From NCBI GenBank assembly GCA_944474755.1, contig OX104122.1, forward strand, positions 23,461,714 to 23,525,713: DNA of 64,000 bases. Direction: 5' to 3'. Under the pieces are notes generated by a model. That model was not told where the DNA came from. It saw only the letters and a list, made by a program, of their open reading frames with translations, and ran no database searches. This DNA is from Limnoperna fortunei. Taxonomy: Eukaryota > Mollusca > Bivalvia > Mytilida > Modiolidae. Positions 11,186 to 62,565 of this stretch are shown piece by piece. Position 1 is the first letter of the stretch. Every line of letters starts with the position of its first letter. A program made the translations under genes and the position numbers.

Positions 11186-13019
<1,834 letters not shown>

Positions 13020-24911: not shown

Positions 24912-25076
24912 AAAATGTTAGCTTGAAATGAAGATGGATTGAGTTACTGGCTACAAACTGAATGTTAGCAGTTCAAAGGTTAAATTTGATATGAATTAAG
25001 CCACACTTCTATTAGATAAAATGAAGAAGTCAGTTATGAAGAAGAAGGCGAAAGGATTTAGTGGTGGGTTCGGAAA
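24912..25076 (+). CDS. First coding exon and 5' leader of the Roco-MBT gene
   Basis: A T-rich tract ending TTTTTTTCAG precedes 24912, so this may be an internal exon whose first part is untranslated. The start codon is at 25021, and the coding part is 25021-25076, ending at a GTAAGT donor. It encodes a basic start, MKKSVMKKKAKGFSGGFGK. Joined to the next exon it reads on in frame through SFAN into MDEAAGDKG. The alternative start is the methionine at 26153. I prefer 25021 because splice phase and the strong donor fit; the leader is inferred. Confidence 0.65.
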
Positions 25077-28000
25077 GTAAGTAATGAGTAAGAACAGGAA
25101 ACCATTGGCGGTATTGTTGTGGATTTGTCACCCTTTACCCCCTGCCAGGGCTTAACCATGCACCCACTGGGGGCCTATGGCAGCATTAAACTCTTTGACA
25201 TCATTCAGAACATAGCTATATGCCCATGTCTTCTGTAAATTCTAAAAGAGTAATTGATACTGTAGCAGTGTTTAAAAAAATCTCAGGAGATGAGAACATT
25301 TTTCATTATCACAAAAGAATATTTTAAAAAAACATGCACTTCCTAAATAAAAATTAGTTTTCAAAAAACTTTCTAAAGTGTAGACATTTTAACATAAGTT
25401 TCAGTACCTGTAATATGTACTACTCTCCAAAAATAAAACATTACACTCGTAAAAGATATAATTCTATAATACATTTGGCCCTCTTAAAATATACTGTGTT
25501 TTAAGCTATTTTTAAAATATAATATTGTTTTCTTTAATTTTAAAAGCTGTTTTGATAAGGTTAGTTAACGTTGTTGCGTGCTATTTTGTTATATAGTGAT
25601 GGGAGTTTCTGTCTGTCCGTCTTTCCGTCTGTCTATCTGTCTGTTATACTTTCTTTTATGCGCAACTCCTCTATCACTACTGAATGGAATTTGATGAAAC
25701 TTACACAGAAACTTGGTCGCATAGTCCCACTGTACACCTGATATTTAACATTTGATCTGAATGATTTTTCGGGTTTCCCATAGCAAAACATGGACTTTGT
25801 CATTGACCTAACGGGGTACTATCTTTTCCGCAACTCCACCTACACCACTGAATGGAATTTGATAAACCTTTCAAAGAGTCTTTTTCACGTAGAGCCATTG
25901 TGCACCTGATATTTAACATTTTGATCAGATAAATATTTGGTATGTTTTAAAAATTGGGAAGAGGGGAGGCATCAATTAGTGAGCATTGCTCACAGTTTTT
26001 CTAGTTTTAATTCGTTTGGAATTTTCTTTGGAATGAGGCAACCAGGTATATCACCCTTGTACCAAATCTCTTTTCCAATTTAACATCCCTCACCTTTGCC
26101 ATTTACCATTAACTCATGCCAGATATAAAAAATTTTCAGAAGTTTTGCCAACATGGATGAAGCAGCAGGGGATAAAGGAGTTTCTTTTGGCAAAGCAATT
26201 GACAGCTTGAAAAACATGGAGAAAGATTATTCAACTGCTAGTACTTCTGAACCGAGGAAATTGATAAAGAAAATATCATCTATTACAAAAGTCACCACCT
26301 TGAAGACGTTAGACAAATCTAGCTTTACATGGGCAGATATTTCTACTAATTATTTGGCCTTTGTTGAGGTGAGAACATATGAACATTGGGTAAAAATTTT
26401 GTTTTTTTGAGTTGTGCTACTAAAGATTTTATTCCAGGAATTTGTTGTAGTTTTCTGCTTAGAAGTTGAGAATATTTTTACTGTACATGCAATTATTTTA
26501 CATTCGAATATGGCATCGTTCATACACTTTGAGAACAAATTAGGGCTCTAATAAGCATATAGCCTGCTGTGACGTCACAATTAGAATTTGATGTTTTATA
26601 TGCTGATCTGAAAATTTTAAACTGGAACAACGCAATTTTGTTAAGATTTCTTAATATTTTTTGCTTAAAATGTACATTTTGCTTAAAAGGTACGTATATT
26701 CAATAAAAGGAAGAGCATATATTTATCTTTTCAGTTTCTAAAACCAATATTACCATTGAAAGCGTCCTCTTATATCCGCTTCAAATTTAAAAACATTTGT
26801 TAGACATATTAGAATCTAAAATAGATTATTGCATTTGGGCTCTATGCCAATTAGAACATGGTCTGACCTTGTTAGAACTCTGTATAAAATATTGACAAAT
26901 GTAAGGTCTGACCATGTTTTAATTCGCATAGAGCTCACTCATAATAATCTATATCTTTATTAGCCTATGAAGAAAAAGCCAATTAGATTTGGTGAACTAC
27001 TTGGAATTATAATTCAGAAAATGTCATTATGCCCTCAGATTGGTATCAGAATGCATGTATCTCGTATGATTTATGCAGATTAATAATTTGTTTGTAAGAC
27101 TTTCTAAAGATCTTTATAAAGATAAGAGGTTTATGTTGGACTTTCTTCAGAAATTTACTGACTTCATTGTCATACCTAGTAATAACAATGTAACTAACAC
27201 TGTGGGAAGTTAAAGTTCTACAATAAAACAGAAGGAAGTTAAGAGAGCTGTTTATTAAAGCATTATTCATTTGAAACTGAGTCTTAAATATGATTGCAAA
27301 TTATAAATTACCAGTTTACAATCAAATAATATGGGTATAGGTGCAACCTGGATGTGATCATCACACATTTCATGGCTCGTTACGTTATTTCAGAGCACTT
27401 AAACTGTACATCTGCATTCCATTGTTGCTGTGGCTGCTTTAAAATTAATTTTAGTGCTCTTCTACAATTTTTCTTCGGATAGCTCACTACCATCTAAAAT
27501 GTTGATATGGATCATGTGACATTTTTTCACACACGTATGTGGCCGTATAGCTCACATCTGTGATGCTAGCTATTAATGTGTGTAACAGTGTTACAAAAAG
27601 TGGACTTTTAATGAATGACTCCCAAAGCAACAAAAATATTTTCATTTTCAGAATGTATATGGAAAATTAAAAGATGCAAAGGAGAATGAACCAGTCAGAC
27701 TGGACTGGACTGGTTTAGAACATCTGAGTGATGCTGTTTTTGGTTGTCTTGTAGAAAAGACAAAGATACCAGGATACAACCATGTATTGGGTATTGTGTT
27801 AACAGGATGCTGCCAATTAACAGATATCGGAGTAAGATGGATGTCTCAGTGTTTTCCTAAATTAAAAGAGGTAAAACTAAAAACAACTTTCAAAAATTTA
27901 ATGAGGTCATTCATATAGGAGGCGTATTAGGTTTTTTGTTTGTTTCATGTTGTACATAGTTATTTTAACCAAATTGAAATGTACATATCTAAATATAAGT

Positions 28001-31000: not shown

Positions 31001-34000
31001 ATGCTTTACACATAACATACTTACTACTATTTATGTACTAATTTACTAATAAGACAGTGTATTACTGTGGTTTCATTGATTTTCGTGGGTATCAATTTTC
31101 CTGGTTGGAGGAAAAAAGACATTTCGTGGAATTCTTAAATTCGTGGTTCACAGAATAAATAAAAATTAAAAATTAAAAATGAGGGAATTGCTTACAAATT
31201 TTCGGTATTCACATACAGTGTTAGTCTGTACATTTTCTGATACGTCATTTGCAAGATATAATTGCTCTCGGGAGGTGACAATTGTAATGCTGATCACAGG
31301 ATTTCATAGAAATTTACGGTACTTTTATTGGAAAGCATCGACATTTAAACAAAATGGGACAGCTTAAGAAAGACGATGCAAAACCAAACCTGTTTTCTGT
31401 TGCTGCGTGGTGCAAAGGGCACACTAAACATAAATTTATGAAAGGGGTTGCGTTTTATGTCGTTTGTAAACACAATTTTAAAAGAAGCACGGTGCATTGA
31501 GTAAAGTGCCCTAAATAAAATCATGCAATGCCATATATCACATGATAGTGTACATCTAGCTACCTATCTTGAAAACGGCGTAATGACTGTTTGGTTTTCA
31601 AAAGAACACAAAGTAATAAAGATTAAAAATATAAAATAATTATCATAATTAATAAACATGCCATTTTATTAAAAGCAACCTAAGTAAACAGTTCATTGTA
31701 AATTCGTCTTACATTCCCTGGGGCAAAGATTAAGTTTGTTTGTTTGACAATATACTTCATGATATAATTAGTGGTTTTTAAAGATGGAAATCAGTATAAA
31801 AGGTGTAAATGAAAAATATATATTGCTTTAATTATTGATCATTATTTCAATTCAGAATGTTACTTCAAGATTTGTGTATACATCAACACTTTACAACGAA
31901 AAATGAAAATGCACAACAGGAAATGCTCCTTATTGATGGGATTACGCAATTAATCCTAATTATGCCTAGCGATGACCTTCCAGCTTCTGCCTAGCAATGA
32001 CCTTCCAGTTTCTGCCTAGCGATGACCTTCCAGCTACTGGAAAAACTATGACCTTCCAGCTTCTGCCTAGTAATGACCTTTTAGCTTCTGCCTAGCGATG
32101 ACCTTCCAGTTTAAATGCAGATGCTTTACACATAATATACTTTCTACTAATTATGTAAATGTACTAATTTACTAATAAGACTGTGTATTAAAATAAATCT
32201 ATCATAATTTCAGGTGTCATTAGCTGGGTGCACAGAAGTTACAGAATCTGGCATTTTTAACCTGGTTATGAACTGTCCCGACTTGAAGTCCATAGACCTG
32301 ACAGCAACCAATATTATGGTACTGCCTACGCAGATCGTTGGTAAAGACGTTGATACTGCTGGATGTCCACTGGTATCACCCAATGATGCATTCATACAAA
32401 AAAGTGGCCTAAATGCCATGAAAGGTAGGTCACTGCTGCAACAGTTAAAAGCCCTGATACGTAAAACGTAGGTCACTGCTGCAACAGTTATACACCCCAT
32501 ATATGTGAGAATGTAGGTCACTGCAGCAACAGTTATACACCCCTGATACATAAAATATATGTCACTGCTGCAACAGTTATAGCCCCCTGAAATGTAAAAT
32601 GTAGGTCACTGCTGCAACAGTAATATGCCCCTGATACGTTACATGTAGGTCACTGCTACAACAGTTATACACCCCTGATATGTAAAATGTAGGTCACTGC
32701 TGCAACAGTAATATGCCCCTGATACGTTAAATGTAGGTCACTGCTGCAACAGTTATACACCCCCTGATACTTTAAATACAGGTCACTGCTACAACAGTTA
32801 TATGCCCCTGAAACGTAAAATGTAGGTCACTGCTGCAACAGTTATATGCCCCTGAAACGTGAAACGTATGTCACTGCTTCAACAGTTATACACCTCTGAT
32901 ACATAAAACGTAGGTCACTGCTGCAACAGTTATACACCCCTGATATGTAAAACGTAGGTCACTGCTGCAACAGTAATACACCGCTGATATGTAAAACGTA
33001 GGTCACTGCTGCAACAGTAATACACCCCTGATATATAAAACGTAGGTTACTGCTGCAACAGTTATAGCCCACTGATACGTAAAACGTAGGTCACTGCTGC
33101 AACAGTTATACAGCCCTGATACTTAAAACGTAGGTCACTGCTGCAACAGTTATATGCCCCTGATACTTAAAACATAGTTCACTACTGCAACAGTTATACT
33201 CCCCCTGAAACATAATACATTCCCATGTTTTTGATCATGTTTCGTTTTCCATTCATTTGTATATAGTTTTTTTATCTTTAAGTCTTTCATCCATCTATTC
33301 ATTTGTTCATCCATTTGTTCAGCTGCTTGAGAAAATAAGTAAATTTGTTCTTTGCCAGCCTGCACAATACAGTTAAAAATAAGCATTTTTTGTTCGTCCC
33401 CATTCACAAAGAAAAGGGTATAACAGTATGTTCAGTCTGCGGTCTAAAATTAGACAGTGTGTTAATTCATCTCATAGATAATTCAATTAATGTACTGTTA
33501 GCAAATTCAAATAAAGTATATACAAAAGTAAAAAGGAACATTTTAAAGTAAATTCATTAAATTTTTTCAGGCAGTGATTTAGCTAGCGCTCACCACTTTC
33601 TCAATTGGCAAAGACTATTCACAAGTGACCAAATATTTTGAACGTAATTTGCCTCTTAAAATTTTGAAGTTTCAACATTTTTTTTGTCAAAATCGCCACC
33701 GGTAAATCCAAACACCTTACCTAAGATACAAGTTTATGACCCAAGGCAATCAAAGTAATTATGTAATAGACACATGTCACTGCATATGTTTTGATAATAA
33801 ATCATTTAATCACTGTTTACACATGGCCGAGTGGTTAAGGTAGTTTGTCTTCTATTGATCACATGGTCTCTCAACACTGAGATTGCGGGTTCGAGTCACA
33901 CTGCAGGCAGGGTGTAATTGACTCCAATCCTAATTGACACGGATTGCCCGTTTTCCTACCGGGTACTCCGGCTTCCTCCCCCAATAATAAATGGACGCCA

Positions 34001-52000: not shown

Positions 52001-55000
52001 AAAATGATTTAAGCACGGATATAGTACTGATTCATTTTGAAGCTAATGTCATGGATTTTGTTTGGAATAGATAAACCACACATTTTTGGAACGATTTAAA
52101 TGCAATTTCCAAGTTAGGAACAGATAACAAAATGATAAAAAATTATTTATCTTGGAAACCGCAAACATGTATGAAAACTGCAAACATTGGTATCCAGGAA
52201 ATAAAATAATCCACATTATTCATTGAATGAAATGTTTTCTATTAAAGTATTGTCTGAAAATTGTTATAAAGTTATGTTAAGGCATCGTTATTGTTATTAC
52301 AGTGATATTAAAAAATAAAATAATGTTACAGGTTGTTCTGAAAGAAAAACTTACAGCGAAACCCACAGGTATGTTAGTTCAAATTATTTTGTTTGTTTGT
52401 TTGAATGGTGTTCTATACCACTTTCAGCAATTTTTCAGCAAAATCATGGCGTCTAGTTTTTATAGAGGACAGAAGGTGCAGTATTCAGTTAAAATCGAAC
52501 ACTTAAACCTTAAATTAAAGTTGATCATCCAATGAAATTGGTTTATATGGCCAAGCTGTTTAATATGTCATGTACCAGCTACATACTGTTTATTATGAGG
52601 CCTGTCATGTGCTAGCTACATACTGTTTATTATGAGGCCTGTCATGTGCTAGCTACATACTGTTTATTATGACACCTGTCATGTGCTAGCTACATACTGT
52701 TTATTATGAAACCTATCATGAGCTAGCTACATACTGTTTACTATGAGACCTATCATGTGCTAGCTACATACTGTTTATTATGAGATCTGTCATGCGCTAG
52801 CTACATACTGTTTATTATGACACCTGTCATGTGCTAGCTACATACTGTTTATTATGAGATCTGTCATGTGCTAGCTACATACTGTTTATTATGAGACCTA
52901 TCATGTGCTAGCTACATACTGTTTATTATGAGATCTGTCATGTGCTAGCTACATACTGTTTACTATGAGACCTGTCATGTACTATCTGCATACTGTTTAG
53001 TGTGAGACCTGTCATGTGCTAGCTACATACTGTTTATTATGACACCTGTCATGTGCTAGCTACATACTGTTTATTATGAGACCTGTCATGTGCTAGCTAC
53101 ATACTGTTTATTATGACACCTGTCATGTGCTAGCTACATACTGTTTATTATGAGACCTGTCATGTGCTAGCTACATACTGTTTATTATGACACCTGTCAT
53201 GTGCTAGCTACATACTGTTTATTATGAGACCTGTCATGTGCTAGCTACATACTGTTTTATTCCACTTGGTCCATATGAACTGTTTTATACACTATGAATG
53301 TTTTATTATGAAAGGCACCATGTTCCATGTACTTATTACTGGTACCCTTTGTTTGTTTACAGATGAGATATCTGGGATTGTCATTGGTCATAAGGTTCAT
53401 ACTAAAGAGACTGGTGCTACATTATGTCGATATTGTGGAACAGCCACTAAACAAACAAATTTCTTATTGGTAAGTTTAATTGTGCATTTTAAGCTGTCCA
53501 TCTGCAAGGTAATCTATTTATATCTCTATTAAAATTTTGAAGGTATAGTTACGTAAGCAAACATCTCTTTTCAAACAGACTTTGTGTTATATTGATTATA
53601 ATTTTAATTTGAATGTGCTACGAACGTAATTTTATTCTGGAGTACATGGATTTTAATTGCCAGGTGTGACTGGATTAGGTCTGTCATTTTCATTATTTGA
53701 GATTTTAGTGTGGTACATTTATTATAGCCTGGTTTTCTTTTAAAAATAAATAACACTAAAGCAAAACAAGCTCATGACCACAAATGATTGAATCACAGTT
53801 TTGAACAATGTCACATGACACCTGCTATTGTCACATGACACCTGCTATACTAAACATAAACAAGGAAGTTGATTTTAAGCTAAACATAACTTACAAACAT
53901 CTCTTTGAATCACAATTACTAAATTTTTTTTAATTTGGCATTGACCCAACACTTCTGAATTTTAAAAAGTCAAAGGTTTGTCTGGTTCAGCTAATAACCA
54001 AAATCACAAGTCTAATTGCAGACCAGAATGGTCCTGGACTTCAGACCACCATTAATTTTGAAACCTTGGAGTATATGGGTGGTAGGTAAAAGGTTAAGCA
54101 TCAGTATTTTATACATTAAAATTAAAAGGTTAAAAAATGGGTCATTTATTATAAGAAAAAAGAACTGTAGATACATAGGAGTTATCAATAGACAATTTTT
54201 AGTCAGGGACAAACAAAACCTAGTGAAATAAAACAGAGGACAACAACAACAAAAAATAACCAGACACACAACCCAAAAACAAAAAACTGGGTGACACAAA
54301 CCCCACCTACCTTGTTGTTAAGAAGCTGTTGTAGAAAATCCTCCTCATTCCTATAGATTAATAAGTTAGCAAAAAGGCCGCACAGTTGGTACTCATTGGA
54401 ATGCATACAGTCTGCTGCAAAACAGGTCCCCAAAAACAGTAAAAATAATAGTACAAGCAGAGTTAATATGTATGCTAGACAAATAAGCACAAAATAAAAT
54501 ACAGTAGAACTTGGATAACTCAAACTCGCTGGGGTTGCGAAAAATAGTTCGAGCTATCGGTAGTTGTAGCCACCAAAGTTGGACAACTTACAAAAATGTA
54601 TCTGTTCTGTACTGTGACAGTTTTTGTTTTTATGTCACTTTTTAATTTCTTACATGCGGAATGGGTGTTTTGGGAACTAAAATTCGTTTTAAATGTCTAT
54701 AGATGTTTATTTCATGAATTTTGACACGAATAAAGTTATTTTGGGTGTTAGTTTGTGAAATTTAAAGTTTCATCATCAGTTATTTACTTCCCTTGATTGC
54801 ACAAAAAACCAGTTTGTGCATGGTATATCTACCATAGAAGTTAAATTAAGTAAATAATTTCCACAGTATTTATTGCCGACATGTTTTTTTTTAAAATTAT
54901 CTTGGCTTTTACAATTGGTTTTTTAATATCAATTAAACCGCAAATGTCAACAAAAGTCGTAAATGATTTTTACTTGGAATGGTTTCGTTTTGATTTCATA

Positions 55001-56027
55001 ATCCGCTTGGTACCTGTACTAATCTTATGACTTCTGTTATCAACGTCCTTTGTACCGAATTTAATTACTTCTCACCGAGGCTTATATTTTAGTTCGAGTT
55101 ATTGATGGTGACTTACAAGAATTGGCTATCAAAGGGACCTATAAACGAGTTCGAGTTTTTGAGAAATCAGTGTTAGAAAAACCTGTGTTTTTTGTTCAAA
55201 CATATATAGAAATAAATGAAGGGACTTTAAAAACAGTTCGAGAAATCTGTGGTGTTCGAGCCATCCGAGTTCTAGCTACTGAAGTTTTACTGGATGTATC
55301 TTTATTGTACAGAAACAAAATGGTTGTACTTTTTACACCCATGATAAAATAATATCGCAAATCTTCTTATACATTGGTAGTTTTTTATTAACTATTTTAT
55401 CATACAATATTTGGTTTTTAAGGAACTCAGGAAAAGTTTGTACAGAAAAGACACCATTTATACTATAGATCAAAAGGACAAGAATTATAAAGAGACGGAG
55501 GATGACAATAAGGGGCTAAACATTATAGCATTAGGAAAAGATTTGGGAAACATTGAGAAAGGAGCTGGAATTATAGTCAAGGCATTGTTAGAACCATTTG
55601 AACAGCCAGAAATAAGCTTCACTGCACTAGAGTTGGATTCAGCTGAAGATGTTAAAATTGAACTCAGGTTTGCATTGTTACGACATTCTTTGTGGTCATG
55701 AAAACGTGGCCTGTCTTTGTGGCTCTGATCGTAGGGGCAGTATATGTGGCCAGTATCAGAGAGCAGTCTTTGTGGCTGCATGCTCATAAAAAAAGTCATA
55801 TATATATTTATGTAGGCAGTGTTGTATTGCAGTCTTTATGAGGGGTCTCAGTGGCCGAGTGGTTAAGGTAGTTTGTCTACTATTGATCATATGGTCTGTC
55901 AACACTGAGATTGAAGGTTCGAGTCTCACTGCTGGTAGGATGTACTCAACTCCAGTCTTAATTGACAAGGGTTGTCAGTTTTCTTCCGAAGGTCAGGCAT
56001 TTTCTCCAGGTTTTCCGGTTTCCTCCC

Positions 56028-56058
<31 letters not shown>

Positions 56059-59000
56059 AACCAAAAAAAAACTGGACACTATAATATAGCTGAAAAATTG
56101 CTGAAAGAGGCATTAAAAAACATTCAATCAAACAAACAAACAATTTACACACACATTGCTAACAACTGTGCCGATTGAAGAAGGAGAAAAGTTATTTAAG
56201 AGAATGTTAGTAGAAGGGCTTAGACCCGTGATATGTGCTAAATTCACACAAACTATTAGGCCATACAAATTAAAAAATTTTTTGTTTGTAAAATATTTTT
56301 GTTTTAAAAATAGACATGAATTCTTCTTTAAATTGTTTTGTCCAATTAAATTACAATCAGTATGTTACTGATTAAAAAAACCCAATTTGTCTATGTAAGC
56401 ATAAAATGTGTGCAGACTTTCTGATGCCATTATGACGTAGTCTGATGTATATTTGTGGAATACAGTTTTTGGTGGATTTGGTGGATACAGGCAAAAGCAA
56501 GCATTTTATCCAGGTCTTTTTGTTCTTATGAACTTTATCTTAAACCATGTGAATTTGTCCATCCAAATTTGGTTTCCTCGATGATTATGTCCAAATTTGG
56601 TTTCCTCGATGATAATTCAAAAAACTTGCTTCTGATTTAAATGAAACTATGGGATATTGTTACATATCAGATTGGAAAGAAGCCTGTTGATTTTGAGGTC
56701 AAATTTCAAGGTCACAGTCCTCAAAAAACTTTGATAAAATTTTGATAAAAAGGCTGTTTCTGGACAATAACAAAAAAAGTTTGCATTTGATTTCAATGAA
56801 AGTTGGGGATACAGTTTAATATTAGGTGGATCAGAAGCCTATCGATTTTGGCAGAAATCTATCAAATTTCAAGGTCACACTTGCCAAAATATTTAAATGT
56901 TTTTACAAAAAAAAAGCCGTTTCTGGACAATAACTCAAAAAGTGTGCATTTGATTTCAATGAAACTTCAGGATATTATTACATATCAGGTGGGTAAGAAG
57001 TCTATTTATGCTGCAGAAATTTCATCAAAGGTCAAGATCACCAGTCAACAAAAAAGAAATTTGTACAAAAAAAGTTCTGCAAAATTTAAGCTGGGGTACC
57101 AGTGATCTCTAGATAAACTTTTTTATTAATGAAATGGACCAATGAAATTTTAGCAGAGCAATTCTGCAGGAAATAATGGTATTTATTCTTATTTATTTTT
57201 GTAGAAATGGTACATACGATTTATCATACTCATTAAAAACAGGGCAGCTAACTCATGGTGGTAAATCCCAAACACTATATGGAAATGATCATCTTGGGAA
57301 AACAGTCAGAATCAGCGTTTCACCAGTTTTCCAGCAGGAGGCAATTTTTTATAATGTTAAAGTTACCGTAAACAAAGAAGCACAGGTACAGGTCACGGTG
57401 CCTGCCAAAACGTACAAACCATACATAGTGCCAGCAAATGAAATAAAGCCAGAAGATATGAAGTCTGTGATAATGGTGCATGGCCACAGTATTAGAGGAC
57501 ATAAGGTTAGTATTACATTACTGCAATAAAATTCAAAATGGGGTACAAATGGGATAATGTGAAACAGTGGGGTACAAATGGGATAAAATGAAACGGGTAG
57601 GTTTGATAAGGTCAGAATTTAGCCTTATTTTCTTATGAAATATGAACGTTTATTTTTTGACTTCATATACAATATTCATACTATGTATGAAAATATAAAA
57701 TTTATTTATACGAACCTTACAAACAGGTAGAAATGCGAGGCTCTGCTGATCATTTCTCACCTGTTTCGCGGTAAGTACAAATAAACTTTATATATTCTAA
57801 CACTGTACGAATAATGCTTTTATCCTGCAACCCTGAAATACATTTTACCTTGATGAATTACATGAAAATTTGCACTTTTAGCAGATTTTTCCTACATGAA
57901 GTTTTTGTCATGTTTTCTAGTGAAAGCCTGATGTCACAAACAAATATTGTATTCAACAACACGTCGTAAACCAGAACAGAATGCTAAATATCATTAGAAG
58001 CGAGGACAATGGTACCAGGAGACTTATATTCTGCACTGCCGAATAAAGCAAAAATTTGTTTGCCTTCCCTTATTGAACAGCAAATGTAATGGTTGCAGGA
58101 TAAATCATTATACTGTGACATAATCCTAGCAATAATAAAGTTAATTACCTCTTATTTTGAGACAATAGCAACTTTAAATTTTCATACAAATAATTCAGTG
58201 AATGCATGTAAGAGCAAAATTCATATTTACTGAAATGTTAATTATTGTTATTAATCTTTTATGGATTAAATTTATGAAGTAAGAAATATTTGTTTAGGTC
58301 TTGTAAGGACTATTTAGCACCTGATCCTTTTAGTTGTTCAAAATATTTCTAAAATTGTGAGGGGCCTGAGTGGCTGAGTGGTTACTATAGATCATGTTGT
58401 TTGTCAACACCAAGATCGCGGGTTCAATTTTCACTCCAAGCAAGGTGTTCTCAACTCCAATCTTAATTGATAAGGATGCTAGTTTTCCTACCGCAGGTCG
58501 AGGGTTTTTTTCTGGGTACTCCTGCTTCCTCCCCCAATAACAACTGGACACCGTTATAAAAAATACAGAACACTGATGAAACTGTCAAAAAAAGACAATC
58601 CACAAATCAAAGTCCGAGAAACTGGCAAACTCCAGAACCATCAACCAAAAATATAGTAACTACAGCAATGGTCCTGACTTGGTACATGAATTTCAAAAGA
58701 AATGGTGGGTTAAACCAGGTTTTATGGCATGCCAAACCTCTGGCTTCCATTACTGTAGAATGTGAGTTGGCTGGTAAACCAGGTTTTATTGCATTCCAAA
58801 CCTCCCACTTCCATTATTTTTTGTGAGTTGGTTAGCTGATTAAAATGAATGGGTATTATATACCACTGGTCACTATTAGGTGTATCCAACAATCATTGTA
58901 GCACATTCACTGTATACTTAATTCAAAAATTGGAAAAACTATCTGCAACCATATTTTCAAACGAGATATTTTTGGACAAGGAAGTGGTATCTATAGTAAA

Positions 59001-62000
59001 ACATACAAAAGGGGTTGACCAGTCATTTTTTCTTTTGGTTTATAAGTTTATCTGGAAAAAAGGTGACGTTTGTAAAAATCAGTATACTCTCTACAGGCTC
59101 TTGCATACCTGATCATTTAAGAAATATAGACACCGTATGCAGGAGAAGCTGGAATATTGCTACATAGTTGAGGAAAATAATTTATAATTTTGAAATTAAA
59201 ATCGTAAATTCTTGTGCTAAGACAAACAAAAATCTTTCCTAACCAGTCATTTAAAATACATACAAAATATTTTGACAGGTGACTACTTATTTAATTTTCT
59301 TGCATTATTATTACATGCATTAAAACAAAGGATTTTTTTCTTTCAACAGAAATTCGAAATAACAGCAGGAATGAGGGTAGAAGCTTTAGACCGGAAAACT
59401 CCTTCATTGATATGTGTAGCAACAGTTGGTAGGTGGTTATTCATAATCAAATTTCTCTTATGTTTTGATCTTTACTGCATTTAACACAATTGATTATATT
59501 ATTATTTCATATTTACAAAATTATTAACTTGACTTGATAACAAACTGATCAAACTGATTGATTGATTGATTGATTGACATCCAGTGAGCATTATTCCAGA
59601 CAAGGACAAGTCAACTATCAATAAATCAACATGGAAATAGTAAAACAATGCCACTGGAAAATGTCTCCGTCCACAATGCCACTGGAAAATGTCTCCATCC
59701 ACAATGCCACTGTAAAATGTCTCCATCCACAATGCCACTGGAAAATGTCTCTATCCACAATGCCACTGGAAATGTCTCCATCCACAATGCCACTGGAAAA
59801 CATCTCCATCCACAATGCCACTGGAAAACTTCTTTGTCCCTACCTAAATCGCCATAGTTACAAAGCCACTGGAAAACATCTCCATCCACAATGTCACTGG
59901 AAAACATCTCCGTCCACAATGCCACTGGAAAACATCTCCATCCACAATGCCACTGGAAAACTTCTTCATCCCTACCTAAATCGCCATAGTTACAAAGCCA
60001 CTGGAAAACATCTCCATCCACAATGTCACTGGAAAACATCTCCGTCCACAATGCCACTGGAAAACTTCTCTGTCCCTACCTGAATCACCATACTTACAAT
60101 GCCACTGGAAAACACATTTTTCTATTTTGTTCATCACATGTTCTATTTTTCACAGTTCCTACAAATTTCATGAACATATTTATCTTTTGTATAATAGGAA
60201 GTCGAGAGTAATTTGGCATTACTATTTTTCATAACTTGATATCTCCCAGTACCTTAGGGTTGAAATTTTTTAGTCCTTGATATTTCTCAGTACCTTGGCA
60301 TATCCATTTTTTATTCCTTGAGATTTCCCATTAACTTGGCATTGCCATTTTTTATTCCTTAACATTTCCCATTAATTTGGCATTGCCATTTTTTATTCCT
60401 TGACATTTCCCAGCAACTTGTCATTGCCATTTTTTATTCCTTTACATTTCTCAGTAACTTGGCATTGCCATTTTTTATTCCTTGACATTTCTCAGTAACT
60501 TGGCATTGCAATTTTTTATTCCATGACTTTTTTCAGTAACTTGGCATTGTCATTTTTTATTCCTTTACATTTCTAAGTAACTTGGCATTGCCATTTTTTT
60601 TATTATATGAAATTTCCCAGCAACTTGGCATTGCTATTTTTTATTCCTTGACATTTCCCAGCAACTTGGCATTGCCATTTTTTATTCCTTTACATTTCTC
60701 AGTAACTTGGCATTGCCATTTTTTATTCCTTGACATTTCTCAGTAACTTTTGCAATTTTTTATTCCATGACTTTTTTCAGTAACTTGGCATTGTCATTTT
60801 TTATTCCTTTACATTTCTCAGTAACTTGGCATTGCCATTTTTTATTCCTTGACATTTCTCAGTAACTTTTGCAATTTTTTATTCAATGACTTTTTTCAGT
60901 TACTTGGCATTGCAATTTTTTATTCCATGACTTTTTTCAGTAACTTGGCATTGCCATTTTTTATTCCTTGACATTGCTCAGTAACTTGGCATAGCCATTT
61001 TTTATCCTTGACTTTTTTTTGTTGGACCGTAAGGCCACTACTGTTTATTTGTTTGCATAGTATGCTTTATGTTTTTCAGAAAAAGTTTATGAAGATGGTA
61101 AACTGCTCATTCATTTTGATGGTTGGACTAGTACATATGATTATGTTTGTGAACCAACAACCGTTGACATACATCCAGTTGGTTGGTTTGAAGCCAACCG
61201 AGGTCAAGAGTTCATGAGCAAATTCAATGCAAATCTACAAAAACCAAAAGGTAATGAACATACTGTGACAAAAATTAGTTGAATGCAAGGATGATAATCT
61301 AAAGGACAGAGTGCATTCAACATTTAAAACAAGCAATTAATTAATTTATGGAAACTTTGGTTCTATTAATAGAAACCTATTTCCCGTGTGACTTAACCTT
61401 GAAATATTCTGTACTGAATACTGATATATAATGTCTTCAGGGGAAATATAAATTTATAATTAAGACTATAAGGGTAGCAATAGTCTTAATTGATCAAATT
61501 TTCTAGATTCTTGACCAGATAAACTATGTTTTAAACAAATAAATAAATAAATACCCAATAAAATTATAGCCTTCCACAAAAATTAATAAGCAATACACTT
61601 ATTGTAAATGCCATCTCCATGAAGACTTCATTTCAGAAGGCAAATATGTAGATTCTGTGATTTAGTTTTTTGTTGTGTTCACAGAATTGACATCTTACCT
61701 GTGATTTAGTTTTTTGTTGTGTTCATGTAAATTCAAAAATAATTTTATGCGAGTAAAGCCATCTTTATTACATGTTCTCAGTGTTCACAAGATATGCCAG
61801 CATTGGGTGATTTCTTCAGCTATTCAATCTCATTGCTGGCACATCTTAGAAAATTTTTGGAAAAAAAACACCTATATATCAGTCAATTAATTACGGTATT
61901 TTAAATCTTTCTGATAACCTTGTTTTTTCAGGAATTCCAGAATCTTCCAAATTGCTGACAATTGATTGTCTAATTCAAATCTTTCTGATAACCTTATTTT

Positions 62001-62565
62001 TTCAGGAATTCCAGAATCTTCCAAATTGCTGACAATTGATCCTTCTAATTCAAATCTTTCTGAGAACCTTGTTTTTCTGGAATTCCAGAATCTTCCAAAT
62101 TGCTGACAATTGATCTGTCTAATTCAAATCTTTCTGATAACCTTATTTTTTCAGGAATTCCAGAATCTTCCAAATTGCTGACAATTGATCTGTCTAATTC
62201 AATTCTTTCTGAGAACCTTGTTTTTTTTCAGGAATTCCAGAATCTTCCAAATTGCTGACAATTAATCTGTCTAATTCAAATTTTTCATAGAACCTTGTTT
62301 TTTCGGGAATTGCAGAACCTTCCAAATTGCTGACAATTGATCCATCTAATTCAAATCTTTCTTAGGATCTTGTTTTTTCGAGAATTTCAGAACCTTCCAA
62401 ATTGCCTAAGATAGTAACATTATCATCACTTTATCTTTATAACATGGCCACAGAATAACACTTATACTTAAATATTTTATAACAGGTTACATGGAATTGT
62501 TTAGCTGGGATACTTACTGCAAAGTAACGGACTCTCTGCCTGTACCTTTTGATTTTTTTACTGAT
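25021..62565 (+). CDS. LRR-pseudoRoc-COR-MBT multidomain protein, 3' end beyond window
   Basis: Twenty exons join without a phase conflict into 1059 codons: 25021-25076, 26140-26368, 27652-27870, 32214-32424, 35983-36173, 37893-38018, 40417-40547, 42723-42864, 43671-43883, 45152-45340, 45577-45678, 48174-48372, 50164-50312, 52332-52368, 53363-53469, 55423-55667, 57205-57505, 59350-59428, 61080-61250, 62486-62565. Order of parts: lysine-rich N-terminus, cysteine-type LRRs (about 135-215), Roc-like domain (about 248-475), COR (about 495-720), linker with CxxC (753-756), beta-rich part (770-949), MBT repeats (from 950). Roco proteins use Roc-COR as a GTPase and dimer device; MBT repeats bind methylated lysine. 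A role coupling the two is inference. The last exon ends in phase 0 at a GTAAGT donor inside a second MBT repeat, so more exons follow beyond 64000. I know no named gene with this layout. Confidence 0.85.
25570..25995 (+). repeat. Dispersed bivalve-type repeat in intron 1
   Basis: Contains TGTCTGTCCGTCTTTCCGTC, two diverged copies of 'GAATGGAATTTGATGAAAC' to 'CACCTGATATTTAACATTT', and the end 'TGAGCATTGCTCACAGTTT'. The same ends and inner phrases occur at 46510-46770 and 49735-50020. Confidence 0.65.
26140..26368 (+). CDS. Exon 2: N-terminal region
   Basis: Encodes residues 19-95. It is rich in Lys, Ser and Thr, with a TSEPRKLIKKISSITKV-type basic helix and a TWADISTNYLAFVE end. No domain is recognised. 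The acceptor is TTTTCAG and the donor GTGAGA. Confidence 0.8.
26805..26965. repeat. Inverted-repeat MITE in intron 2
   Basis: The left arm 'AATAGATTATTGCATTTGGG' to GAACATGGTCTGACC pairs with the right arm GGTCTGACCATG to 'CTCATAATAATCTAT', around a short spacer. No coding content. Confidence 0.65.
27341..27574 (-). mobile_element. MITE, 'GCGAGCATCGC' family, short copy
   Basis: Diverged copy with an internal deletion. It ends 'CACATCTGTGATGCTAGCTA' and carries GATATGGATCATGTGACA, the uninterrupted form of the site that holds a nested insertion in the 37-kb copy. It ends about 80 bp before exon 3. Confidence 0.6.
27652..32424 (+). CDS. Exons 3-4: leucine-rich repeats
   Basis: Exons 27652-27870 and 32214-32424 encode residues 96-238. 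The repeats are of the cysteine-containing type known from F-box/AMN1 proteins: LTGCCQLTDIGVRWMSQCFP, then LAGCTEVTESGIFNLVMNCP, then LKSIDLTATNI. The segment ends AGCPLVSPNDAFIQKSGL, matching the 'GNPL..PP......G' turn that closes the LRRs and leads into Roc in animal Roco proteins. The 4.3-kb intron between the two exons holds duplicated 25-bp minisatellites and other repeats. Confidence 0.85.
27875..30640. other. Intron 3, left part: two related direct copies, otherwise plain
   Basis: 'CTCTAGAC' to 'AAATACACAACTG' and following text occur twice, about 28540-28700 and 28915-29065, giving a diverged direct duplication. A pair of inverted phrases CACACCGTGTTACACC (29458) and GATACACCGTGTAACAC (29560) may mark a small MITE. 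No exon is seen. Confidence 0.45.
30640..30990. repeat. 25-bp minisatellite, block A
   Basis: Units of TTCTGCCTAGCAATGACCTTCCAG, about a dozen, some diverged at the left. The block is followed by 'TTTAAGTGAAAATGCTTTAC', which recurs after block B. Confidence 0.85.
30990..31964. other. Spacer between duplicated minisatellite blocks
   Basis: Begins with a stretch (to about 31070) that is repeated after block B just before exon 4. The rest holds 'TTTCATTGATTTTCGTGGGT' and other AT-rich sequence with no supported exon. Confidence 0.45.
31965..32112. repeat. 25-bp minisatellite, block B
   Basis: About six units of the same TTCTGCCTAGCGATGACCTTCCAG repeat. With the shared right flank (CTTTACACATAATATACTT and 'ACTAATTTACTAATAAGAC'), it shows a duplication of repeat plus flank. 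The exon 4 acceptor follows within about 100 bp. Confidence 0.85.
32425..33205. repeat. ~43-bp minisatellite starting at exon 4 donor
   Basis: About 18 units begin GTAGGTCACTGCTGCAACAG and end in a CCCCTGATACGTAAAAC-like phrase. The first unit's GTAGGT is the splice donor of exon 4. Most later units still carry a donor-like ACGTAGGTCA. No exon copy is included. Confidence 0.9.
33210..33820. other. Intron 4 segment, no feature seen
   Basis: AT-rich sequence; frames at 33150-33407 and 33345-33551 have no motif or splice phase. Confidence 0.4.
33822..34054 (+). repeat. tRNA-headed SINE in intron 4
   Basis: Head ACATGGCCGAGTGGTTAAGG, B-box GGTTCGAGTCAC, tail 'AACACCATTCAAACAAACAA'. Confidence 0.85.
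34376..34716. mobile_element. Long-TIR foldback MITE, copy 1
   Basis: The ends AGTCAAAATAC and GTATTTTGACT begin inverted arms of about 150 bp that include GACCTGTCAGGTATTTTCTA, 'AACAGCTGTTTAGAAAACTG' and 'TGCAATTTAAATGTCC'. A related copy is at 45745-46259. Confidence 0.8.
35179..35286. repeat. ~105-bp palindromic MITE
   Basis: GGGTGCCGTTTCAGAAAGCG pairs with CGCTTTATGAAACGGCACCC. Inside, TTAACGTGCACGTTATCCCA pairs with TGGGATAACGAGCACGTTAA around a short loop. Near-palindromes of this kind (ends like 'GTGCCGTTTCATAAAGC') are widespread in animal genomes. Confidence 0.8.
35385..35650 (+). repeat. tRNA-headed SINE in intron 4
   Basis: Head 'TGGCCTTGGTGGCAGAGTCG', body CTCCAATCTTAATTGACAAG and tail 'GTTAAACAACAACATTCTAA', with some divergence in the A-box. 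Confidence 0.8.
35983..42864 (+). CDS. Exons 5-8: Roc-like domain without GTPase motifs
   Basis: Exons 35983-36173, 37893-38018, 40417-40547 and 42723-42864 encode residues 239-435. Strand and position match a Roc GTPase: NLIKVCIVRQQNFTSNFM stands where the P-loop GxxxxGK(S/T) belongs, SVIVVPYEHDE where the DxxG/switch strand belongs, TSVLFVALVEDINKT where the (N/T)KxD strand belongs, and APNIKFITAFKDN as the last strand. The glycines, lysine and Ser/Thr of the P-loop are absent, as is NKxD. The domain is probably a pseudoGTPase kept for structure. Exon 8 ends at the first unit of a 75-nt tandem repeat. Confidence 0.7.
36532..36637. repeat. Palindromic element in intron 5
   Basis: CACTGTAGGAGGAGTTGATT pairs with AATCAACTCCTCCTACAGTG around a 10-nt centre, and the arms extend outward to CTGTGAAGTTT / AAACTTCACAG with mismatches. 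Flanking 'GGGAACTTAGTCATTTTTCA' occurs on both sides in direct orientation. Confidence 0.75.
36999..37870 (+). mobile_element. MITE, 'GCGAGCATCGC' family, with nested insert
   Basis: The 12-bp TIR GCGAGCATCGCA (37001-37012) matches TGCGATGCTCGC (37846-37857), and 'ATTTAGGCTGTGC' extends the right end. A second element sits inside at 37066-37549. The right end lies only 22 bp before exon 6. Confidence 0.75.
37066..37549. mobile_element. Nested MITE with perfect 9-bp TSD
   Basis: GTGATCCAT occurs exactly at 37057-37065 and 37550-37558. Inside, the left end CAATCGGAACATCTCTCGG mirrors the right end, reverse complemented CAATCGGATCACCTCGGTT, and the match continues through TTTCCG to CTCGGAGGTAAGTG. 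The 9-bp duplication suits a MULE-type element. The other copies of the host MITE lack it, which confirms the insertion. Confidence 0.85.
38020..38985. other. Intron 6 left part, decayed repeats
   Basis: About 38140-38240 matches a palindromic repeat also seen near 46380-46490 ('GGATTATGGGATTTCTT'). 38505-38625 is a decayed SINE (ACACTAAGGTTGAAAG to 'GCTGAAAAATTGCTGAACGTG'). No exon is seen. Confidence 0.45.
38988..39158. repeat. ~41-bp tandem repeat, 4 units
   Basis: TATGACTTGGGAGTGAGCAG followed by GAAATAATTTTCTTTGTAAT recurs four times with small changes, directly before a dispersed repeat. Confidence 0.8.
39170..39905 (+). repeat. Dispersed repeat with four ~160-bp internal units
   Basis: Starts 'TTATACCCCTGCTCGATAGA', has (GTCC)n, then four units that run from 'GATAATTCAAAAAGTTTACA' to 'AAAACGTTAGAAATTTTAAC', and ends AGCGGGGGTATCAGCGATCG. 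A related array with three units is at 56545-57115. Confidence 0.75.
40121..40384 (-). repeat. SINE with 12-bp TSD next to exon 7 acceptor
   Basis: Full-length copy flanked by TATGCTTTTGAT at 40109-40120 and 40385-40396. Its tRNA-like head ends about 32 bp before exon 7 (40417). Confidence 0.9.
40735..40930 (+). repeat. 'AGCTCACCTGA' dispersed repeat fragment
   Basis: TTTTTAGCTCACCTGACACA and 'GTGTGAGCTATTCTCATCAC' are followed by 'GTCGTAAACTTTTTACATTT', a common type of dispersed repeat in molluscs. Only the left part is clear. Confidence 0.5.
41610..42695. mobile_element. TIR element with inner 'CTTGTCCG' element, intron 7
   Basis: The left end (AGAGGATTCCTCTTAATTGC, then ATACGCAATTAACAG) is inverted at the right ('GCAATTAAGAGAAATATGCA', then CAGTGGAACCC). 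Inside, 41879-42450 begins and ends with repeated ACTTGTCCG phrases, suggesting a second nested repeat. The right end is about 28 bp before exon 8. A minus frame at 41993-42298 lies inside; no domain is recognised. Confidence 0.55.
42790..43380 (+). repeat. 75-nt tandem duplication of exon 8 end and its donor
   Basis: Copy 1 (42790-42864) is the last 75 nt of coding exon 8. Seven more copies follow: 42865-42939, 42940-43014, 43015-43089, then copies to 43380 with one or more unit-length changes. Each begins with a donor-like GTAA(G/C)A placed right after CAG. Copies 2 and 3 stay open in frame; copy 4 has a stop (LLNALQT). Confidence 0.92.
43671..52368 (+). CDS. Exons 9-14: COR domain
   Basis: Exons 43671-43883, 45152-45340, 45577-45678, 48174-48372, 50164-50312 and 52332-52368 encode residues 436-731. 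After an alpha-helical connector (IQEILLASENVIKLYPEYEE), COR hallmarks follow in order: SPVVMDIHWLSKVL (the 'D..WL' start), LLPKLGFGFA, YVPYRFLDSEPP, then VRYQFNLVHGLATDIMSQLF and PILMWKNGVVIQEN ('lW..Gvv'). The C-terminal beta part ends around HTAKKFKIVIEYI. COR is the dimerisation unit found only next to Roc, so it anchors the Roco assignment. Confidence 0.8.
44600..45010. repeat. Dispersed repeat in intron 9 (copy 1)
   Basis: 'ACAGGTAGAAATGTGAGGTT' to 'ACCTGTTTCACGGTGACTAC', then 'AGCCTGACATCACAAACAAA' and 'AACAGAATACTAAGTATC'. The same order of phrases is at 57717-58110. The two short inverted AGGTA/ACCTGT motifs suggest hairpin ends. Confidence 0.65.
45745..46259. mobile_element. Long-TIR foldback MITE, copy 2
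   Basis: Same arms as 34376-34716 (AGTCAAAATACAATGACC and GGTCATTGTATTTTGATT) but with a longer centre that holds about 180 bp of extra sequence. Confidence 0.8.
46380..46770 (+). repeat. Palindromic repeat and 'ATACCCCCGC' dispersed repeat
   Basis: 46380-46495 is a small palindromic repeat (ACATTAGTAGGAGTGGATT / 'AATCCTAGAGTACTAATGT'). 46512-46770 runs from TATACCCCCGCAAACTTG through (GTCT)n to 'AAGCGGGGGTATCGCATTG' and 'TGAGCACGCTCACAG'. Confidence 0.65.
46771..47885. other. Intron 11 segment with one dispersed repeat
   Basis: 47262-47520 is a 'TTTATACCCCAGCTTCGATG' family copy. The rest is AT-rich with no exon or RNA seen. Confidence 0.45.
47886..48012. repeat. Palindrome plus half copy
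   Basis: GACTTTGGATCGATTTATGC and 'ATAAACCGCTTCGCGGTTTAT' form a hairpin closed by CGTAAATCGACCCAAAGTC (47889-47960). A half copy, ACGACTTTGGATCG to AACATAAACCGCT, follows at about 47977-48013, some 160 bp before exon 12. Confidence 0.75.
48429..48520 (+). repeat. SINE head fragment
   Basis: GGGCCTCGGTGGACCAGTGG to 'GGGTTTGAGTCTC'. The 3' half is missing. It starts about 56 bp after exon 12. Confidence 0.8.
48525..49730. other. Intron 12 segment, no feature seen
   Basis: AT-rich sequence without recognisable exon or complete repeat. Confidence 0.4.
49735..50020 (+). repeat. 'ACCCCCGCTTCGAAG' dispersed repeat
   Basis: Begins TTTACCCCCGCTTCGAAGG, has GTCCGTCCGTCC, and ends 'AAAGCGGGGGTATCACTAG' with 'GAGCATTAGCTCACAGTCC'. 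Ends are inverted (ACCCCCGCTT / AAGCGGGGGT). Confidence 0.75.
50352..50594 (+). repeat. Diverged SINE
   Basis: 'GCTTGGTTGCCGATTTGTTA' to 'GAAAGTGGCATTA'. The A-box is degraded. It starts 40 bp after exon 13. Confidence 0.75.
50678..50943 (-). repeat. Full-length SINE with 14-bp TSD
   Basis: Flanked by exact copies of ATTGGGTTATAATG at 50664-50677 and 50944-50957. The best-preserved copy in the window, so probably the youngest. Confidence 0.92.
51075..51495 (+). repeat. Dispersed repeat, GC-richer (copy 1)
   Basis: Begins GATTGATTGGATGTCTGC, passes 'GGGTAGGGGCGGAGAATTTA' and 'CCTGACAACCCCCCAACGAG', and ends 'GAACCCTCCCAGTATGGTC'. Inverted relatives lie at 63710-64000, and a left-end fragment at 59558-59630. 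Frames through it (51089-51569) are not supported as genes. Confidence 0.7.
51673..51935 (+). repeat. 'ATACCCCTGCTTCGAAG' dispersed repeat
   Basis: TTTATACCCCTGCTTCGAAG, GTCCGTCCGTCC and an end 'AGCAGGGTATACTGAGTGAG'. Confidence 0.7.
52390..52470 (-). repeat. SINE tail fragment
   Basis: TTTGTTTGTTTGAATGGTG to 'ATCATGGCGTCTAGTTTTTA'. It begins about 20 bp after the tiny exon 14 and is directly followed by a minisatellite. Confidence 0.8.
52560..53256. repeat. 37-bp minisatellite in intron 14
   Basis: About 18 units of CATACTGTTTATTATGAGAC followed by CTGTCATGTGCTAGCTA. A GAGACC/GACACC/GAGATC variation alternates, which suggests higher-order units. It ends about 105 bp before exon 15. Confidence 0.92.
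53363..53469 (+). CDS. Exon 15: possible H-x2-H/C-x2-C metal site
   Basis: Encodes residues 732-767. The spacing H741-x2-H744-x8-C753-x2-C756 (GHKVH, then LCRYCG) would suit a zinc site. No named zinc-finger family is recognised. It lies directly after COR. Confidence 0.6.
53475..54500. other. Intron 15 left part, repeat relics
   Basis: A short direct repeat TGTCACATGACACCTGCTAT occurs twice near 53810-53850. 'CAGAATGGTCCTGGACTTCAG' near 54024 resembles text at 58670 (dispersed repeat). Frames here have no domains. Confidence 0.4.
54502..55292. mobile_element. pogo/Tigger-like non-autonomous element
   Basis: Left end CAGTAGAACTTGGATAACTC; right end, reverse complemented, CAGTAAAACTTCAGTAGCTAGAACTCGG. 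Both ends repeat GTTCGAG phrases near the termini. 'CAGTA.A.C..GGATAACTCGAA' is the type of end seen in pogo/Tigger elements. A TA duplication is visible on the left only. No transposase remains. Confidence 0.55.
55423..57505 (+). CDS. Exons 16-17: charged linker and beta-rich region
   Basis: Exons 55423-55667 and 57205-57505 encode residues 768-949. The first part is charged (KDKNYKETEDDNKG), followed by alternating hydrophobic strands (TVRISVSPVF, IFYNVKVTVN, VQVTVPAKTY). It looks like a beta-sandwich but no family is recognised. It ends just before the MBT core. Confidence 0.75.
55841..56143 (+). repeat. SINE with long C and A tracts
   Basis: Head GGGTCTCAGTGGCCGAGTGG, tail 'AACATTCAATCAAACAAAC'. 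A C-run and A-run at about 56029-56070 replace 'CCTCCCCCAATAAAAACTGG', probably an expanded slippage site. Frames here (poly-Pro) are artefacts. Confidence 0.85.
56545..57115 (+). repeat. Dispersed repeat with ~160-bp internal units
   Basis: Three units of GATAATTCAAAAA to 'TTTCAAGGTCACAGTCCTCA' match those at 39225-39870. The right end TACCAGTGATCTCTAGATAA matches the end of that copy. It lies about 90 bp before exon 17. Confidence 0.7.
57717..58110. repeat. Dispersed repeat in intron 17 (copy 2)
   Basis: 'AACAGGTAGAAATGCGAGGC' to CACCTGTTTCGCGGTAAGTA, then 'AAGCCTGATGTCACAAACAA'. Same order of phrases as 44600-45010. Confidence 0.65.
58361..58553 (+). repeat. SINE, shortened head and no 3' tail
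   Basis: GGGGCCTGAGTGGCTGAGTG followed by a short deletion in the tRNA-like head, then 'AACTCCAATCTTAATTGATA' and 'TTCCTCCCCCAATAACAACT'. The conserved tail domain is missing. Confidence 0.75.
58560..58835. repeat. Dispersed repeat relic
   Basis: 'TAAACCAGGTTTTATGGCAT' with 'GCCAAACCTC' occurs twice (58714 and 58781), as a short tandem part of an older repeat that reads 'GGTCCTGACTTGGTACATGA'. Confidence 0.5.
59350..62565 (+). CDS. Exons 18-20: MBT repeat and start of a second
   Basis: Exons 59350-59428, 61080-61250 and 62486-62565 encode residues 950-1059. The MBT core is clear: GMRVEALDRKTPSLICVATV, LLIHFDGWTSTYDYVC and VDIHPVGWFE. Compared with L3MBTL1 repeat 2, the cage residues Asp (963), Phe (988), Trp (991) and Tyr (995) are kept, while the Asn of the pocket is Thr (966). 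The usual N-terminal arm (F.W..YL) is not seen before residue 950. A new arm, LFSWDTYCKV, then VPFDFF, opens a second repeat whose core must lie beyond the window. Confidence 0.9.
59558..60112. repeat. 28-bp minisatellite in intron 18 with repeat fragment
   Basis: After a left-end fragment of the 51075 repeat ((GATT)n, 'GACATCCAGTGAGCATTATT'), units of CAATGCCACTGGAAAACATC followed by TCCATCCA run from about 59645. A larger unit including 'CCTACCTAAATCGCCATAG' is duplicated. The 150-codon frames through it on both strands are repeat artefacts. Confidence 0.9.
60215..61015. repeat. ~41-bp minisatellite before exon 19
   Basis: About 19 units of TTTCTCAGTAACTTGGCATT followed by GCCATTTTTTATTCCTTGACA. 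Several units carry 'TTTTTTCAGTAACTT', an acceptor-like text. The array ends about 65 bp before exon 19. Confidence 0.92.
61255..61905. other. Intron 19 left part, no feature seen
   Basis: AT-rich; a short direct repeat GTGATTTAGTTTTTTGTTGTG occurs twice (61658 and 61700). No exon is seen. Confidence 0.45.
61905..62405. repeat. 75-bp minisatellite with acceptor-like motif
   Basis: About 6.5 units contain CTTTCTGATAACCTTG, TTTTTTCAGGAATTCCAG and 'AATTGCTGACAATTGATC'. TTTTTTCAG is a full polypyrimidine-AG signal and recurs in at least four units, upstream of the true exon 20 acceptor at 62485. Confidence 0.9.

Follow-up and report, generated by a model that had tools for sequence, protein, structure and literature searches.

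Gene model and features of the locus

The stretch of DNA analysed here in full (the window) comprises 64,000 nt of Limnoperna fortunei DNA with a GC content of 33%, and carries on its forward strand a chain of 20 exons running from 25021 to 62565, which in the rebuilt gene model adds up to a stop-free frame of 3177 nt, or 1059 codons. Exons were searched by combining six-frame reading with splice-site and codon scores, and all 19 introns of the model are of the GT-AG type and consistent in phase. An earlier, sequence-only reading had proposed a gene with matching phases, and its start, end and exon count are identical to those of the rebuilt model. The open frame runs past the end of the window, so that the 3′ part of the gene lies outside it; indeed, the splice donor that follows exon 20 indicates that the gene extends further 3′.

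The exons are listed below, together with the evidence on which each is based; E values and identities are from tblastn of a predicted Mytilus protein (P0001, see below) unless stated otherwise.

25021..25076, +, exon 1: start codon and lysine/glycine-rich N-terminus (splice donor and phase; no separate tblastn row)
26140..26368, +, exon 2: N-terminal region (E 1.8e-17)
27652..27870, +, exon 3: cysteine-type LRR (E 4.6e-34, 70% identity; FBXL2 LRR match)
32214..32424, +, exon 4: cysteine-type LRR, ending in the LRR-to-Roc linker (E 2.0e-25, 68%)
35983..36173, +, exon 5: putative Roc beta-1-like strand without P-loop and putative G3 strand (splice sites and phase)
37893..38018, +, exon 6: putative Roc-like beta-3/alpha-3 (E 4.3e-14, 68%; in register with LRRK2 Roc)
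40417..40547, +, exon 7: putative Roc-like beta-4/alpha-4 (E 4.1e-05)
42723..42864, +, exon 8: putative Roc-like beta-5 (E 1.3e-06; 3′ end tandemly repeated downstream)
43671..43883, +, exon 9: putative Roc alpha-5 and start of COR-A (E 3.0e-17)
45152..45340, +, exon 10: COR-A, with DIHWLSKVL (E 1.0e-10; aligns to LRRK2 COR)
45577..45678, +, exon 11: end of COR-A (E 2.9e-08, 66%; aligns to LRRK2 COR)
48174..48372, +, exon 12: COR-B, with MWKNGVVIQEN (E 2.2e-22; Pfam COR-B below cut-off)
50164..50312, +, exon 13: end of COR-B (E 1.8e-12)
52332..52368, +, exon 14: micro-exon (best-scoring candidate against the Mytilus peptide; no tblastn row)
53363..53469, +, exon 15: C-x2-C segment (E 7.0e-05)
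55423..55667, +, exon 16: linker region (E 3.8e-08)
57205..57505, +, exon 17: linker region holding GNDHLGKT (E 5.8e-16; string check)
59350..59428, +, exon 18: first half of the MBT core, with the cage Asp (Pfam MBT 6.5e-05 on the ORF; tblastn E 2.4e-05)
61080..61250, +, exon 19: second half of the MBT core, with the cage Phe, Trp and Tyr (Pfam MBT 1.7e-11 on the ORF; tblastn E 6.1e-11)
62486..62565, +, exon 20: MBT arm, followed by a splice donor (E 4.6e-04; arm aligned to L3MBTL3)

Exon 5 is the least certain of the model. The 37-nt micro-exon at 52332-52368 is needed because exons 13 and 15 would otherwise join out of phase, and it scored 20 against the Mytilus peptide, compared with 5 for the next-best candidate. 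A draft of the model, lacking exons 13-15, contained a false exon at 55093-55295 which was dropped after tblastn of P0001; the stretch 55092-55301 has an open frame and coding-like codon use, is unmatched by P0001 and is excluded from the model. It was this draft that served as the query for the full-protein Pfam analysis, the first protein search and the FBXL2 match, and its N-terminal and MBT parts are identical to those of the final model.

Three tandem arrays lie next to exon boundaries. An array at 42795-43377 (75-bp unit, 25 codons) extends from exon 8 into the intron and repeats the exon's 3′ end and splice donor about 7.8 times; its initial copies leave the frame open, so that the length of exon 8 could vary by splicing. 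The array as a whole was ruled out as coding, since it runs into stops and is absent from P0001. A 44-bp array of about 17.8 copies (32421-33204) begins at the exon 4 donor and repeats donor-like sequence, and a 75-bp array of about 6.7 copies (61903-62405), with acceptor-like TTTTTTCAG units, lies shortly before exon 20. Elsewhere in the window, ORFs at 11449-12815, upstream on the same strand, match HLH (2e-06 and 7.9e-05) and, below cut-off, Hairy_orange (7.7e-05), and probably belong to a Hairy/E(spl)-type gene. A dispersed element sharing a 28-base core occurs at eight places on both strands between 10454 and 62794 (8 matches with at most 3 mismatches, versus 0 expected by chance), and neither a tRNA (ARAGORN) nor an Rfam family at gathering score was found within the window.

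The Mytilus homologue and the continuity of the gene

Queried with the draft model, a collection of about 5.8 billion proteins yielded P0001, a protein of 1682 aa (E 5.6e-284) that is annotated as 'Hypothetical predicted protein [Mytilus galloprovincialis]'. It was the only one of 7 matches among 7991 scored candidates to present the full architecture, the other six covering 6–11% of the query and carrying MBT repeats, and it was recovered as the single match in two further searches, among 6701 and 7994 scored candidates respectively. These counts are to be read as minimal, as the searches of 7991 and 7994 candidates scored only those sharing most words, by which relatives may be missed, and the length limits left out shorter fragments.

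Global alignment of the final model with P0001 evidences the same segments in identical order, with 542 of 999 aligned residues identical. The identity amounts to 53% in the N-terminus (47 of 89 aligned residues within residues 1-95), 74% in the LRRs, 53% in the Roc-like region, 56% in COR, 38% in the C-x2-C segment, 43% in exons 16-17, 53% in the MBT core and 48% in the arm. At the DNA level, tblastn of P0001 on the window returned 20 rows at E ≤ 10, 17 of which correspond to exons 2-4, 6-13 and 15-20, ordered and on the forward strand, with E ≤ 7.0e-05 except for exon 20 (4.6e-04) and identities per exon of 33–70%. Exons 1 and 14 gave no row of their own, and exon 5 aligns only by its last 20 residues (E 9.5, not significant alone), most of this exon being absent from P0001; two further rows are out of order and chance-like (E 7.2 and 1.1).

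The LRR part was described in the sequence-only reading as cysteine-type, which is confirmed by its match to FBXL2 (E 3.8e-14, with a piece of the draft model). Beyond the MBT unit P0001 has LRR_8/LRR_4 repeats (Pfam, 9.5e-15 and 3.8e-13) and, in its last 117 residues, a weak EF-hand match (0.015, below cut-off); NCBIfam adds four bacterial LRR-protein families, all below cut-off and all on the C-terminal LRRs, and PADLOC gave no match. Inside its Roc-COR region, residues 403-553 match the dynein microtubule-binding stalk (PF12777, 3.2e-17), for which tblastn found no counterpart in the window, and this insert may be a gain in Mytilus or a prediction error.

The comparison bears on whether the COR and MBT exons belong together. 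The fusion of LRR, Roc/COR-like and MBT segments in one frame, as originally proposed, holds as a gene model, and its order is kept in a predicted protein of another mollusc, where such an orthologue had been suggested as a check. The alignments thus make it very probable that COR and MBT are encoded by exons of a single gene, P0001 having the same segment order with 542 of 999 aligned residues identical. The one-gene model does rest on genomic DNA and a predicted protein, which leaves a very small chance that two neighbouring genes, one LRR-Roc-COR and one MBT, were read as one; but P0001 holds both halves in a single protein that aligns along COR, linker and MBT, exons 12-20 are consistent in phase, and it was the joined protein that led to the micro-exon lacking before. 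As P0001 is likewise predicted, the two models could share an artefact, but this is unlikely at 33–70% identity per exon. In particular, a separate MBT gene starting at 57–59 kb, the case named at the outset as refuting the fusion, is unlikely given the conserved COR-MBT order.

Roc-like, COR-like and MBT regions

The joined protein contains the four motifs quoted earlier for COR and MBT, DIHWLSKVL, MWKNGVVIQEN, FDGWTSTYDY and DIHPVGWF, which start at residues 523, 647, 988 and 1005. The profile evidence differs from one domain to another. Pfam Roc was found neither in the draft protein nor in P0001 or the pieces of the final model, and COR-B was recovered only below the curated cut-off: 0.015 on the exon-12 ORF, 0.0069 in P0001 and 0.0039 on exons 10-15, where it is the sole Pfam match (17.4 bits versus a cut-off of 27); in the full draft protein it was not found at E ≤ 5. 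The strings quoted as clear COR signatures are present, but the profile support for the domain is weak.

We have compared this segment with LRRK2, using a two-sequence profile and an LRRK2 sequence identical to that of the PDB chain. With hhalign, the Roc half matches over 62 columns (profile 51-116 to LRRK2 52-119) with a score of 17.5, which is reached by 4 of 100 shuffles (best shuffle 30.3) and compares with 13.0 for the reversed sequence, while the COR half matches over 76 columns in COR-A with a score of 21.0, likewise reached by 4 of 100 shuffles (best 23.7; reversed 15.9); the reported probability is about 1% for each half. The halves had been cut apart beforehand, so that the Roc-COR order in this comparison is imposed, and the weight thus lies on the register within each half, on COR-B following COR-A and on the LRRs preceding them. 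When the segment was left uncut, only the Roc stretch was found, 8 of 100 shuffles being as good.

A PDB profile search with the Roc-COR segment yielded 3 matches at E ≤ 10, no Roco protein among them, and the two structure predictions had mean pLDDT values of 42 and 37, too poor to be used. In the former, strands and helices alternate in the Roc-like part at low confidence, and Foldseek with one of these poor models gave 88 matches at E ≤ 10, 0 at E ≤ 0.001 and no Roco protein among the best 50 of the 88. We regard the Roc and COR identities, as read from these alignments, as weakly supported. The fusion could also be real with a middle that is not Roc-COR, consisting of an unrelated alpha/beta domain and an unknown domain between LRR and MBT, as would fit the sub-threshold COR-B, the absence of Pfam Roc, the hhalign probabilities near 1%, PDB matches devoid of Roco proteins and unusable structure models. 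We consider this improbable, as the stretch from Roc G3 to beta-4, COR-A and COR-B each match Roco proteins weakly but in the expected register, and proteins with ROC, COR and MBT are listed elsewhere, in the available parts of two reports (PMC9334734, PMC4104024).

Within a Roc-like reading of this region, exon 5 provides a beta-1-like strand followed by a loop without a P-loop motif, and a string scan found GxxxxGK[ST] neither in the Roc-like exons nor in those of COR. A single [GA]xxxxGK[ST] string occurs in the joined protein, GNDHLGKT at residue 875 (57281-57304, exon 17), where P0001, which lacks most of exon 5 and has no P-loop string, reads KKDSLGKT; it is probably a chance occurrence and, as it lies after COR, the Roc-like region can still be read as a pseudo-Roc. 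Because its exons hold no P-loop, we infer that this region is such a pseudo-Roc, with a GTP switch that seems to be dead. The label Roc-like is weakly supported: the register match with LRRK2 is reached by 4 of 100 shuffles, the exons hold no P-loop and Pfam Roc was not found.

A distinct scenario resulted for the MBT unit. Pfam MBT reaches 73.9 bits on the full draft protein, where the curated cut-off is 22 (E 1.2e-20), so that the domain search accepts the MBT core that had been called clear, and we take the identity of the unit to be certain at the sequence level. It matches solved structures of 34 distinct sequences at E ≤ 0.001, with L3MBTL3 and L3MBTL1 ranking highest; within L3MBTL3, repeat 2 scores 79.3 bits versus 52.9 for repeat 1 and 46.0 for repeat 3, and the match extends into the next arm. 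Since each MBT arm is packed against the core of the repeat before it (according to the part of PMC2747274 available), the succession of core and arm observed here would be a complete unit and not a truncated second repeat. The linker upstream of it, encoded by exons 16-17, matches no Pfam family at E ≤ 10.

The methyl-lysine cage of MBTD1, as given in the available part of the same study, is formed by Phe526, Trp529, Tyr533, Asp502 and Leu508 (PMC2747274). Its counterparts here, Asp963, Phe988, Trp991 and Tyr995, are identical in P0001 and keep the spacing of MBTD1 Asp502/Phe526/Trp529/Tyr533 as listed there, except that the first interval is longer by one residue. The model also has Leu969 and Cys971, of which P0001 keeps the Cys and has Phe at the place of Leu. 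Binding by L3MBTL1 is confined to repeat 2, and the same study credits this to a pocket Cys replacing Phe or Arg (PMC2747274). By our own mapping, based on the alignment with L3MBTL3 in which repeat 3 holds Arg at that column, Cys971 would correspond to this Cys. The conservation of the cage residues suggests that methyl-lysine is still read by this unit; the reading of methylated lysine proposed earlier is supported as far as these residues, kept in both the window and P0001, can speak for it.

Relation to known proteins and proposed role

Members of the L3MBTL family have three MBT repeats with SAM. The protein studied here resembles the second repeat and next arm of L3MBTL1 and L3MBTL3, its best solved-structure matches, in keeping the cage Asp, Phe, Trp and Tyr, and differs from them in having one MBT stretch embedded in a Roco-like protein; neither SAM nor a C2HC zinc finger was found in the window part (draft model) or in P0001. 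With LRRK2, LRRK1 and other LRR-Roc-COR proteins it shares the order LRR, Roc-like, COR-like, with a weak alignment to LRRK2, and it differs from them in the Roc-like exons devoid of a P-loop, the MBT unit after COR and the FBXL-like LRRs. The LRRK/DAPK subfamilies are marked by a kinase, which was found neither in P0001 (E ≤ 10) nor in the window part of the draft (E ≤ 5). Protostomes are described, in the accessible portion of a survey, as having LRRK and DAPK1, with MFHAS1 restricted to deuterostomes (PMC4104024).

The sequence-only reading knew of no described protein joining the two modules, but such proteins are in print. Two putative TLRs of Aplysia with ROC and COR form a clade, LOC101848126, with the domains LRR, TIR, ROC, COR and Mbt, and LOC101845043, which has an EF-hand, and a novel signalling cascade has been suggested for them (PMC9334734, partial text); MBT is likewise among the domains in the legend of Figure 1 for the Trichoplax ROC-COR proteins, the legend and the accessible text giving no domain order (PMC4104024). 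The available text of PMC8195603 has no occurrence of MBT, and no functional study of a Roco-MBT pair was found in the open-licence literature. Judged by the domains listed in these excerpts, the protein, with its LRRs, its Roc-like and COR-like regions and its MBT unit, resembles LOC101848126, likewise from a mollusc, and it is like LOC101845043, of the same clade, in the EF-hand, weak in P0001. It is unlike LOC101848126 in that TIR was not found in P0001 at E ≤ 10, the window covering the 5′ part of the gene. The Roco-MBT pair is thus already in print, as far as these excerpts go, and the present form differs by its degenerate Roc and, in P0001, also by the absent TIR.

Taken from the sequence, our reading, which we hold to be somewhat more probable than its alternatives together, is that of one gene encoding cysteine-type LRRs, a P-loop-less Roc-like region, a COR-like region, a linker and one complete unit of MBT core and arm, with COR as a dimer scaffold and MBT for docking. 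COR would, by analogy with Roco biology, hold the protein as a dimer; the seemingly dead Roc would be a fixed structural piece instead of a GTP switch, and the LRRs would bind a partner or cue. The MBT cage may dock the complex on a protein that carries mono- or dimethyl-lysine, whether a histone or another, and the gene, judged by the Mytilus homologue, would continue into more LRRs and an EF-hand.

A role in defence is conceivable by analogy with Aplysia. The protein would then be a cytosolic innate-immune receptor, as in the LRR-TIR-ROC-COR-Mbt protein of Aplysia, with LRRs sensing a microbial or danger cue and MBT serving only as a protein-interaction module. The listing of LOC101848126 and LOC101845043, both with ROC and COR and in one clade, among the putative TLRs of Aplysia (PMC9334734) would fit this, as would the C-terminal LRRs and weak EF-hand of P0001. 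However, P0001 has no TIR at E ≤ 10, no feature seen in the window points to immunity and the kept cage residues suggest that MBT still reads methyl-lysine, and we consider such a receptor possible but on the whole unlikely.

Returning to the methyl-lysine scaffold, we would suggest, as a speculation slightly less probable still, that this is a Roco-type protein without a GTP switch, in which a COR-held dimer presents two MBT cages and a cue sensed by the LRRs targets methyl-lysine proteins, within a metazoan lineage of such pseudo-GTPase readers reaching from placozoans to molluscs. The join between Roco and MBT modules amounts to a gene whose order is conserved between Limnoperna and Mytilus, with an intact-looking methyl-lysine pocket and a seemingly dead GTPase-like module. 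Should binding be demonstrated, a Roco-type scaffold would be connected with the recognition of methylated proteins, and the function of a group of invertebrate Roco proteins would become open to direct testing.
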